From assembly GCA_951828385.1 (NCBI GenBank), contig OX639973.1:5571200-5635199 (forward strand): DNA of 64,000 nt, in the 5' to 3' direction. This document shows positions 22,531 to 28,469 of this stretch, piece after piece. The number at the start of each line of letters is the position of its first letter. Within the stretch, counting starts at the first letter, position 1. The position numbers were made by a program, and so were the translations under genes. The DNA comes from an uncultured Poribacteria bacterium (GTDB taxonomy: Bacteria > Poribacteria > WGA-4E > WGA-3G). The notes under the pieces were generated by a model, which was not told the origin of the DNA, did no database searches, and was given only the letters and a program-made list of their open reading frames with translations.

Positions 22531-23298
22531 TTAGGCATCGTCGCCGGGAATTTCTGGCCAATTGTGTTCTGGTGAATACCCTAAATCGTCTTTTGCCTGC
22601 TGCCATGCAAAACGGGAATCCGTACGTCCAGCGACGGCGTTATACGCCCCATATTTTACCGTCTCTGTCTCAATCGCGCGGGCGACACATTGCGCAACAT
22701 CTCTCGGATCCACATAAACGAACCAAGGGTCCGTTACAACATCAGGGGCTGCCGGACCGGGATTTTGTCCATCGCCAGCGATAACGCCTGGACGGACATG
22801 AATTACATCTAATCCGTGTGCTTGATGGTATGCCGCACCGATCTGCTCTCCCAGGTACTTCGCGAGTGCATAGTAAAGGTCTCCCGCGCCGAACTGGAAA
22901 TCATCACCTACCTCATACGGCAATTTTACGCCGGGCGCAGGAGGACACGTCGATATACTTGATATGTTCACAAGTTTCCGTACGCCTTGTCGAACGCAGG
23001 CTTCAGCAACATTCCATGTGCCTTTCACCATCACATCTGCAAATAACGAAGCTGGTTTATCCGACCGTCCTCGTACCAAGGCAACAAGATGCACAACAGC
23101 GTCCTGCGCCGCACACGCTGCTTCGATTTCGGCGGCGTTTGTCACATCTGCCTTGATAAAGGTCGTATTTTCAGGCACTTGATCCGGTTCAACGATGTCA
23201 GTCAGCATCAGTTCATACGTGTCGTGCAACCGGTCAATAATAAATTGCGCTAAATATCCGCTCGCACCGGTAATCAAAATCTTTTCAATAGTTGCCAT
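22531..23298 (-). CDS. NAD(P)-dependent epimerase/dehydratase (extended SDR)
   Basis: 255-residue Rossmann-fold enzyme. The N-terminal GASGYLAQ gives the GxxGxxG dinucleotide loop, and the catalytic YxxxK is YALAK near residue 144, with the upstream Ser in NISSIS. Residues 168-180 (VIHVRPGVIAG) are typical of nucleotide-sugar epimerase relatives. It follows the selenoprotein gene by 21 bases and precedes the interrupted gene by eight, so a minus-strand operon is likely. Substrate unknown; a sugar or small carbonyl compound is most likely. Confidence 0.85.
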   Translation of the reverse strand: MATIEKILITGASGYLAQFIIDRLHDTYELMLTDIVEPDQVPENTTFIKADVTNAAEIEAACAAQDAVVHLVALVRGRSDKPASLFADVMVKGTWNVAEACVRQGVRKLVNISSISTCPPAPGVKLPYEVGDDFQFGAGDLYYALAKYLGEQIGAAYHQAHGLDVIHVRPGVIAGDGQNPGPAAPDVVTDPWFVYVDPRDVAQCVARAIETETVKYGAYNAVAGRTDSRFAWQQAKDDLGYSPEHNWPEIPGDDA

Positions 23299-23319: not shown

Positions 23320-23658
23320 TTAGACAAAGGGTGGATTCTCATAGAGTGCTACATTGTAGCCAACAAAAAAGACATCGCCACTCTGGACTGTCGGTGCGCG
23401 TAGACTACCGCTACGACCCAGGACCGCTTTCAAAATCGGTGCTTGTGTGTCTTCAGACGGCACGAAGGTTTCAACGCGCTTCCCTTTCGCAACAACGATC
23501 TGCTTCGCACTGCCCATTAAATCCCATACCGCTGCGGCATCCATTCGTTCTTTTCGAGCGTCTGTCCGGTTTTCTGCTTGTAAGTTATGTGTGTCAAGAA
23601 ACTCTTGCACTTTTTTGCATGAGTTTCAGCTATTCCGAAAATAGATCCAATCTATCAT
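23320..23658 (-). CDS. ArsC-family selenoprotein (in-frame TGA as selenocysteine)
   Basis: A short ORF starting at GTG 23610 would lack the N-terminal strand of the fold. Reading through TGA at 23628-23626 extends the frame to ATG 23658, giving MIDWIYFRNS-U-NSCKKVQEF, a U-x-x-C redox motif in place of CxxC, and a 112-residue thioredoxin-fold protein. The remainder (TDARKERMDA, QIVVAKGKRV, RSGSLRAPTV) fits the ArsC/Spx-like group annotated as ArsC family (seleno)protein. AAGGA lies before the ATG. A hairpin directly follows the TGA. Likely a thiol/selenol oxidoreductase; its substrate is unknown and arsenate is not implied. Confidence 0.85.
23598..23627 (-). promoter_or_regulatory. Candidate bacterial SECIS hairpin
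   Basis: On the minus strand GAAACTC (beginning inside the TGA) pairs with GAGTTTC, with an inner TGCA/TGCA stem and the apical loop AAAAAG. The apical loop starts about ten bases after the TGA, somewhat nearer than in the well-studied examples. The position directly at the TGA supports a selenocysteine signal. Confidence 0.55.
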
Positions 23659-23755
23659 TTTTTTAATTTTCCTTGCGGTTCGGTGAAGTGGATTTGGGAT
23701 TTCAGGTGTCTTTCCATCTATCCGCTTTCCACTGCGTTCCAAGCTTCGCGCTTTT

Positions 23756-24766
23756 CTAACCCAATTCTTCCACATTAATAAATCTGCCAGTGTCGCGGCT
23801 CTGGACCGCGGCATCAATTAAGGCGAGTGTCTGCACGCCATCAGCAAAAGGCGAGCGGATGAGTGTCCTATCGCCTGTTTCAATCGCACGTAGCCACGCA
23901 CCAGTTTTGTTTAAACCCAGACTGTTTTCACCGACTACCGGTTCGTTGACAGTCTCACCGTTAAGGTAGCCGCGAATAGCATTTTCTGTCATATTTGCAT
24001 ATAGCCGTAAATGCGGTCCGACGACTTCAACCTCAAAACTAAATTTTTCCGTCCCGCAGTGGTTCATGTGCGTTCCGAAAACGCCGTTATCCAATTGATA
24101 GGTCATCTGTATGGCGTTTTCTGCATCGAATTCCGTCCGTTCCAACGCCATATTTTTGATAGCCAATGCATGCGCCTGCACAGGTTTCGGATTTCCCATA
24201 ACAAACCGCGCGCAATCCAACACATGCACCGCCTGTTCAGGTAACGGACCCCCACTTATCTCAGACTGCAGAAACCACGGCGACATTCTGAAACTGAGGT
24301 AATAATCAACGGTGCATACCGTCCGGACGAGATGTACCGTCTCCGAAGCGATTAACGCTTTCAGACGTTCATAGAGTGGATGATAACGGAGTTGGAATCC
24401 GACCGCAGCGATGACATCCGCTTTCTCAATACATGCAAGACACTTTCTACCTTCAACCATATTCAGCGCAGGTGGTTTTTCGATCATCATCGGAATACCA
24501 CGATCACATGCCATCTGAATGGGTTCAAGACGAATGGGCGGTGGTGTCGTAATCACTACGCCGTCCATTTCTACATCGAAAAAGGTGTCCAAATCAGTAG
24601 TCGCAAGTGCTTTGTCAGCATGTGTTGCGAGTTCGCGCGCAGCCTCAAGTCGCACGTCATGGACAGCGACAACGCTCGCGCCATAATCGGTTATCGCTCC
24701 CTGATGATGTCTACCCATACCACCAGCACCGATGATGCCGATTGCTAAGAATCTTTTAGAGTTCAT
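23756..24766 (-). CDS. Gfo/Idh/MocA-family oxidoreductase
   Basis: 336-residue NAD(P)-dependent dehydrogenase. The N-terminal GIIGAGGMGRHH is the dinucleotide loop, and EKPPAL near residue 97 is the conserved EKP motif of the family. The C-terminal half is the substrate-binding alpha/beta domain. The start is ATG 24766, overlapping the stop of the upstream decayed gene as TAATG; a GTG at 24787 is less likely. These enzymes act on sugars, inositols or their derivatives; the substrate cannot be read from the sequence. Confidence 0.88.
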   Translation of the reverse strand: MNSKRFLAIGIIGAGGMGRHHQGAITDYGASVVAVHDVRLEAARELATHADKALATTDLDTFFDVEMDGVVITTPPPIRLEPIQMACDRGIPMMIEKPPALNMVEGRKCLACIEKADVIAAVGFQLRYHPLYERLKALIASETVHLVRTVCTVDYYLSFRMSPWFLQSEISGGPLPEQAVHVLDCARFVMGNPKPVQAHALAIKNMALERTEFDAENAIQMTYQLDNGVFGTHMNHCGTEKFSFEVEVVGPHLRLYANMTENAIRGYLNGETVNEPVVGENSLGLNKTGAWLRAIETGDRTLIRSPFADGVQTLALIDAAVQSRDTGRFINVEELG

Positions 24767-25199
24767 TATATTTTGAGGTTTCCCCACGTTACAGCGAGTT
24801 TCGCTTTCGGTTCGACGGAAAAGATATTAAATCCCAGGGTCGTAACGAAAATGTTATCGAATTGCGCGTAGTGAGCAGCAGCACCCCGATTGCCGCCGCG
24901 TGTGTAGAAACCGATATTCCCCTTTTTGTATCTTTCCTCACTATCGCTCCATTCACTCACAAAAACGAGACGATTCCAGTTCGCACCAACCCTACCGAGG
25001 TACGCCTTAAATTTGTAGTGCTTGCGCACCTCAAACTTGACGCGGTACCAAACATTCTGCCTATCGCTTGCGGTGCCTATTTAGCGAAGTCGATTTCTTG
25101 ACGCTCAAAGTCATCCTGAAACAGAATTTCAGCATAACCGATGCTGACACACAACGTCAGTCCAACAATGAAAGTTATCTGCCATACAGAGGTTTTCAT
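24766..25199 (-). pseudogene. Decayed secreted protein (3-keto-glucosidase/LamG-like fold)
   Basis: ATG 25199 begins a clear signal peptide (MKTSVWQITFIVGLTLCV, then SIGYAEI) leading into LFQDDFERQEIDF. A TAG follows at about 25085. In a second frame the sequence resumes from about 25080 with NVWYRVKFEVRKHYKFKAY, then SEWSDSEERYKKGNIGFYT and AAAHYAQFDNIFV, which resemble the closing strands of DUF1080/LamG-like jelly-rolls. The middle of the domain is missing and the frame is shifted. It ends VEPKAKLAVTWGNLKI, the shared tail motif. Confidence 0.65.
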
Positions 25200-26546: not shown

Positions 26547-28469
26547 ATGCAACCCCAAGACGTTATCGAACAGCAGTACCGCGAAGCGGTAGATGCACTT
26601 GTTGAGAAGGTTCAGAAGGATCCCTATGTCCTCGCAGCGATTGTTGCGGGTAGCTTTTCTTATGCACAGGTATGGGAGAAATCGGACCTTGATGTTGAAC
26701 TTATCGGCAGAGATGCAATTCGTCCGACGCAATCTTTCTTCTCACTCATTGAAAACGGCGTAAACATCCACGCCAATATAACGCCCCGGAACGCTTTTAA
26801 GCAGAATATTGAAAGCGCGCAACAGGGGTCTTTCATGCACTCCTATTTCTCGCACAGCACGCTGCTTTTTTCGCGGGATGACTCCATCCAAGAGTGGTAT
26901 GATAAAAACGCAAACCGCGATAACATCGGCGAACGCGATAAACAATTCCAACTGCTCAATGTCATCACCAGTACTTTGCCAAGCCTCATCTATGCCGAAA
27001 AACAGTTTTACGTCAATAAAGATATTTTGACCGCTTTTCTCTCGCTCCTGAACGTCGTACAAGGGTTAGCACGGATAGAAGTGCTTCTGAACAATGAAAT
27101 CCCCGCACGCGAGGTGATTCAGCCCGCGCTCCGCTACAATCCGGATTTCTTTAACCGCGTCTATACAGACCTGATCAACTGCGAAAAGAACGAGGTCGTC
27201 ATTCAAGACGCGCTTGATGCAGTTAACACCTACCTCAATGAACGCCAATTTATTTTTCAACCTGTTCTCGACTACCTCGCTGAGCAAAAAGCACCGCGCG
27301 CAATCACCGAGTTGAACGCAGACTTAGGCCGCGGATTAGATGAAGATGGCGAAGAATCGCTCAATCTGGTGTGCCAATGGTTGGTATGGAAAGGCATTAT
27401 CAGGCAAGTTTCAATGCCACTGAAACTCACGGCAAAAAGCCAAATCGCCGTCGAAGAACCCGCCTACTATTACGATGGCACTGTAGGCGCTCGCGATGCT
27501 TCTCAAACGCAATTGAAAGGGGATATCCACGCCCAAATCCACCGCGCGGTGGCGCGTATATCGGACACACTCGAGCAGGACATGTACATCCTCGCGGCGA
27601 TCCTCACCAACAACCTCGCTGAAGACAACGTCTGGGAAAAGACGGCTGTTCATATCACTTTGATTCTCCGTGACGGCACGAAGTTCAAACAGGAACAGTA
27701 TCAATTAATTGAAGAAGGGGTACCCATCCTTGTCCAACTCCATACCCGCAGTGCTTATAGAAAAATGTTGGACAGCACGTTACAGGGCAGCACGCTCCAT
27801 TCGATCCTCGCTGATAGTCGTCCTCTCTTTTCCAAGGATAGTCTGTTTGCTGTAGACGGGGATGCAAATTTCCCGGTAGGGGATCCTTCCTATCTGCAGG
27901 TCAGTGAACGGGATATGCACTCCCAACTCCTCAACACTGCTGCCGAAGCGACTGCCGCACTCGCAAAAACTGAAAAGTGGTTCCACCTTAAGCGCGATAT
28001 GGATTACACGTTTCTCTACATAACATACCTTGTCAGAGAATTGGCACGTATTGAAGTCCTCATGCACGGTGAAACGCCGAGACGGAAGGCTATCTATCAA
28101 GCACTCAAGCACAATCCCGACTTTTTCAAAGCCGCTTTCACGGACCTAATAGACAAACCGAAAGATGAGACGATGCTTGGCGAGGCACTCGAACAGATCA
28201 ACCAGTATTTAGAGGATAACTTACAGACCCTGTTCAAACCGCTGCTTGATTTCTTTGAGGAATCCGGTGACGAGCGAACAATAAGCGACATCTATACGCA
28301 TTTCGGTAAGCGTCAACTCGGCTTTGGATTAGCATGCGAATGGCTTGCGCAAAAAGGAGTCATTGAACAATACTCCGCACCTGTCCGTTTGACGAGGGAT
28401 AGCAAAGTCTCCGTAGAGGAACCCGCATATTATTATGATGCGAACAATCCATTCCTATTCGACCTATAA
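26547..28469 (+). CDS. Tandem-duplicated nucleotidyltransferase-fold protein
   Basis: 640 residues made of two related halves (about 1-310 and 325-640). Each half has an N-terminal NTase-like fold, a helical middle and a winged-helix-like end finishing in EEPAYYYD. The first half keeps the motif GSFSYAQVWEKSDLDVEL, with GS and the D-x-D pair that bind metal. In the second half the same segment is TNNLAEDNVWEKTAVHITL and lacks the aspartates, so it is probably inactive and may be regulatory. The ATG follows AGGAGG. Substrate unknown; stand-alone NTases of this kind often modify small molecules, RNA or proteins. Confidence 0.75.
   Translation: MQPQDVIEQQYREAVDALVEKVQKDPYVLAAIVAGSFSYAQVWEKSDLDVELIGRDAIRPTQSFFSLIENGVNIHANITPRNAFKQNIESAQQGSFMHSYFSHSTLLFSRDDSIQEWYDKNANRDNIGERDKQFQLLNVITSTLPSLIYAEKQFYVNKDILTAFLSLLNVVQGLARIEVLLNNEIPAREVIQPALRYNPDFFNRVYTDLINCEKNEVVIQDALDAVNTYLNERQFIFQPVLDYLAEQKAPRAITELNADLGRGLDEDGEESLNLVCQWLVWKGIIRQVSMPLKLTAKSQIAVEEPAYYYDGTVGARDASQTQLKGDIHAQIHRAVARISDTLEQDMYILAAILTNNLAEDNVWEKTAVHITLILRDGTKFKQEQYQLIEEGVPILVQLHTRSAYRKMLDSTLQGSTLHSILADSRPLFSKDSLFAVDGDANFPVGDPSYLQVSERDMHSQLLNTAAEATAALAKTEKWFHLKRDMDYTFLYITYLVRELARIEVLMHGETPRRKAIYQALKHNPDFFKAAFTDLIDKPKDETMLGEALEQINQYLEDNLQTLFKPLLDFFEESGDERTISDIYTHFGKRQLGFGLACEWLAQKGVIEQYSAPVRLTRDSKVSVEEPAYYYDANNPFLFDL

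Follow-up and report, generated by a model that had tools for sequence, protein, structure and literature searches.

The locus raises the question of whether an in-frame TGA is read as selenocysteine (Sec), and what the protein that contains it would do. It lies on the minus strand of the window (the whole stretch of 64,000 nt that was analysed), in the 6.66 Mb genome of a sponge-associated Poribacterium. The in-frame TGA almost certainly encodes Sec in a small redox protein. The gene is a real member of a selenoprotein family that is already catalogued, NF041106, and the reading of its product as a selenoprotein of that family, with an ArsC/Spx-like fold, UGA codon 11 decoded as Sec and a redox role, is held with high confidence.

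The frame is open on both sides of the TGA, as the initial annotation, made from the letters alone, had stated (Table 1). With the TGA, its single in-frame stop, read through, it translates to MIDWIYFRNS-U-NSCKKVQEF... and ends after 112 residues. The ATG is preceded by a likely ribosome-binding site, and AAGGA or GGAGGA stretches are also present 5' of the ATG in the genes of relatives.

Table 1. Features of the selenoprotein locus (positions in the window)
Feature	Position	Strand	Basis
Selenoprotein CDS, ArsC/Spx-like, 112 residues	23320..23658	minus	ATG 23658, stop TAA 23322-23320; NF041106 match
TGA codon 11, read as Sec, first residue of U-N-S-C	23626..23628	minus	TGA in 71/71 phylum homologues; TGC in one member from another phylum
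TGC codon 14, putative resolving Cys of U-x-x-C	23617..23619	minus	invariant in both alignments
Purine-rich stretch AAGGAAAA 5' of ATG, likely ribosome-binding site	23667..23674	minus	sequence; similar in relatives
Conserved SECIS candidate GUGCAAGA-GUU-UCUUG(A)CAC, tip A-GUU-U	23591..23610	minus	RNAalifold; synonymous-codon controls; bSECIS model
TGA-adjacent hairpin GAAACUC...GAGUUUC	23598..23627	minus	strongest fold of own sequence, poorly conserved
GFO/IDH/MocA-type NAD-binding oxidoreductase, upstream gene	23756..24787	minus	Pfam PF01408, PF02894; same position in 35/38 related loci
NAD-dependent epimerase/dehydratase, downstream gene	22531..23298	minus	Pfam PF01370; downstream on the same strand in 35/38 related loci

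Family, fold and active site

The protein scored 120.8 bits against NF041106 ('ArsC family (seleno)protein'; curated cut-off 85), and the active-site criterion of that family, Sec/Cys-xxC, corresponds here to U11-N-S-C14. When a profile of diverse members was compared with the PDB, Spx was retrieved at 8.7e-9, with CTSC lying over UNSC and LRRP over LRAP. An AlphaFold model (built with Cys in place of Sec; mean pLDDT 92.4) places a strand at residues 2-7, followed by residue 11 and a helix at residues 12-23. Its best structural matches were the ArsC-related 3gkx (Z 8.8, rmsd 2.6, 88 aligned) and Spx 3ihq (Z 8.7, rmsd 2.5, 87 aligned), glutaredoxins scoring lower. Model and profile together support a fold of the ArsC/Spx type in which helix 1 begins at Sec11, which agrees with the motif and fold that the initial annotation had proposed. 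Across phyla there is no variation at W4, R8, U/C11, C14, L21, G81, G84, L86, R87, P89 and G100; P89 stands at what we take to be the position of the cis-proline of the thioredoxin fold.

In the proposed mechanism, UGA codon 11 would be read by SelB with tRNA-Sec, directed by a stem-loop just 3' of it within the coding sequence. Sec11, at the N-terminus of helix 1, would occupy the site of the catalytic Cys in Spx and glutaredoxins, and its selenolate would attack an oxidised substrate (a disulfide, a peroxide or similar). Cys14 would then resolve the intermediate as an Se-S bond with Sec11, to be reduced by the cellular thiol system. This chemistry is probable, judging by what is known of proteins that share this fold and the UxxC.

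A transcription regulator of the Spx kind that senses redox state, binds the alpha subunit of RNA polymerase and uses Sec11-Cys14 as a faster form of the Cys10-Cys13 switch of Spx is an unlikely alternative. By profile no solved structure is closer than Spx, which by fold also ranks among the best matches, and its CxxC aligns to the UxxC; B. subtilis Spx (1z3e, 3gfk) shares the fold, a CxxC where helix 1 begins and the 'LRxP...vGyN' segment. Spx and enzymes have a common fold, however, so that the fold does not decide between regulator and enzyme. The first Cys of Spx is replaced by Sec here, and the scores against the Spx model PRK13344 (18.7 bits, cut-off 152) and the Spx/MgsR model TIGR01617 (18.3 bits, cut-off 75.05) are both far below the cut-offs. 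Glutaredoxin and NrdH have the same strand-CxxC-helix active site, whereas the present protein has an additional ArsC-type middle segment and scores 15.2 bits against Pfam glutaredoxin, under the cut-off of 22.9.

The function suggested by the name ArsC, arsenate reduction, is very improbable, even though the protein belongs to the same fold class and Arg8 and Arg87 are invariant. Pfam ArsC (PF03960) gave no match up to E 10 with Cys substituted for Sec, and the motif is UxxC, not the UxxS listed for selenoprotein arsenate reductase (PMC13188914). Of the neighbouring genes that could be identified in the main family of the phylum, one codes for a MocA-type dehydrogenase and the other for an epimerase, and no arsenic genes were recognised; an arsenate reductase was rejected on motif, Pfam and neighbours.

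Conservation of codon 11 and the selenocysteine machinery

Homologues of the selenoprotein were found in 71 of the 85 genomes of the phylum (47-99% identity), each with exactly one in-frame stop, a TGA, and with the 10-residue N-terminus ahead of it conserved. Regarding the 387 genomes searched with NF041106, 80 yielded hits above the cut-off (70 within the phylum, 10 outside), and 79 of these carry the TGA; the exception, G219, shows TGC at this column and therefore the motif CNTC, so that outside the phylum nine of ten have TGA and one has TGC (Cys). The TGA column is identical in all 61 distinct Sec-encoding sequences that were read. The initial annotation had proposed comparing homologues at this column; since all of those read have TGA or TGC at the site, every one has Sec or Cys there. 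A search of viral contigs and plasmids for selenoprotein homologues found none.

As judged from these alignments, the in-frame TGA is not a chance event, since all 71 phylum homologues share a single one, and Sec decoding at codon 11 is strongly supported. That the TGA instead marks a genuine end of translation, or is a sequencing error or decayed codon, the real protein being the 96-residue ORF that a standard gene caller chooses from GTG 23610 (a possible start under table 11), can be set aside with near certainty, since the TGA is kept in 71 of 71 genomes behind a conserved N-terminus and the GTG codes for Val17, inside helix 1 of the AlphaFold model. As had been anticipated, standard annotation starting at this GTG cuts off the active site.

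The machinery for Sec, which the initial annotation had named as a check, is complete in the same genome: a tRNA-Sec (76.4 bits; anticodon TCA, ARAGORN), selB (355.2 bits, 39 nt from the tRNA-Sec), selA (523.8 bits) and selD (362.6 bits). The SelD of this genome (G000:C1, about 1330118-1331041; L090 1483-2526) is itself a predicted selenoprotein, an in-frame TGA of its gene falling in VKCAGUASK. At E <= 1e-60, selA was found in 72 of the 85 phylum genomes, and at that threshold nine genomes with the TGA form, mostly draft assemblies, gave no match (G030, G004, G034, G012, G062, G065, G068, G070 and G049; G030 is 96% complete). The missing matches are likely due to assembly gaps. In two relatives, G037 and G040 (one family of the order), selA lies directly 5' of the selenoprotein gene, so that the Sec-synthesis enzyme and the selenoprotein appear to share an operon. 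One study of a sponge microbiome reported SelA and SelB from the majority of its symbiont bins, which belong to various phyla, and their absence from most related references (PMC5649159).

RNA structure downstream of the TGA

A hairpin starting right at the TGA had been proposed initially. It does exist as the minimum-energy structure of positions 23640-23580 (-13.4 kcal/mol, z -2.56), but it is not the RNA element that evolution has kept: the conserved SECIS candidate begins 18 nt downstream of the first TGA base, and not at the TGA itself. In an RNAalifold consensus of 50 distinct poribacterial sequences this stem occupies nt 19-38 (the U of the UGA being nt 1), and nearly the same stem (nt 20-36) was obtained when 11 Sec sequences of other phyla were folded separately. 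It is kept despite changes in sequence (GUGCAAG/CUUG-A-CAC, GCUCAAG/CUUGAG, GCCUCC/GGAGGC). The group mean energy of the segment was -6.8 in the phylum against -2.7 for synonymous-codon shuffles (best -3.5), and -9.8 outside the phylum against -4.5 (best -7.0), values that are not independent tests because the sequences are related.

The bacterial SECIS pattern has been described as a tip N-G-[G/U]-N-N with a G within the first two positions of the loop and a loop 16-37 nt from the UGA, the energy threshold of the bSECIS model being -7.5 kcal/mol or below (PMC13188914). The tip A-GUU-U of the conserved stem fits this pattern, and its loop, 22-23 nt after the UGA, lies within the spacing rule. 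In the sequence of the present gene the stem, at -7.0 kcal/mol, is slightly weaker than the threshold of -7.5, and the TGA-adjacent hairpin of -13.4 kcal/mol is a competing fold; a ribosome halted at the UGA should melt the base of that hairpin.

The TGA hairpin was also considered as the conserved SECIS and rejected. Its base pairing is lost in several poribacterial sequences, and also in other phyla, where 63% of cells are paired, and its loop AAAAAG, without an early G and about 10 nt from the UGA, fails both the loop and the spacing rules. It is more stable than synonymous controls only within the phylum, where it may have a secondary role. At nt 19-38 the Cys form in G219 lacks a stem-loop of the SECIS type, which is what loss of Sec would lead one to expect; next to that Cys-form gene, a small thiol-oxidoreductase-like protein with the motif GDCPLC is encoded.

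Known relatives, gene neighbourhood and possible role

A seleno form of this fold was already known in some bacteria, as the initial annotation had supposed. A 2026 review lists NF041106 as 'Arsenate reductase-like protein' with UxxC (PMC13188914), so that the gene belongs to a known family, and the same family was listed in 2022 as COG1393 UxxC (PMC9312934). With a score above the cut-off and the UxxC, length and Sec column alike, the present protein shows no difference of substance from these entries. The 'Arsenate reductase 2' (cd03032, UxxC) of the Global Ocean Sampling selenoproteome of 2008 (PMC2398784) is probably the same family; it too has an Spx/ArsC-type domain with UxxC, that set being marine and having known Cys homologues. 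In the literature searched on the NF041106 family, no description of phylum-wide TGA conservation, the SECIS position or the operon was found, and the literature search returned no paper containing both Poribacteria and selenoproteins.

The order MocA-type oxidoreductase, selenoprotein, epimerase, all on one strand, was found in 35 of 38 poribacterial loci; in the present one the epimerase gene begins about 21 nt 3' of the selenoprotein stop. The gene order was not found in the other families sampled, and therefore the operon does not define the role of the whole family; outside the phylum, the ORF lists contained no clear conserved neighbours pointing to a substrate. Elsewhere in the window, positions 26547-28466 (plus strand) encode a 640-residue protein that looks like a tandem-duplicated nucleotidyltransferase-like domain, its weak Pfam matches lying below the cut-off.

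A dedicated partnership in Poribacteria with the flanking MocA-type dehydrogenase and epimerase, or else a selenium-based redox switch resembling Spx, is an unlikely proposal; if true, it would be the first defined biological role for the family. What the locus adds to a catalogued, uncharacterised family is its presence, always in the Sec form, in almost all genomes sampled from a single order of sponge-associated and related bacteria, together with an operon and a SECIS whose position is conserved, which can serve as handles on the function of the family.
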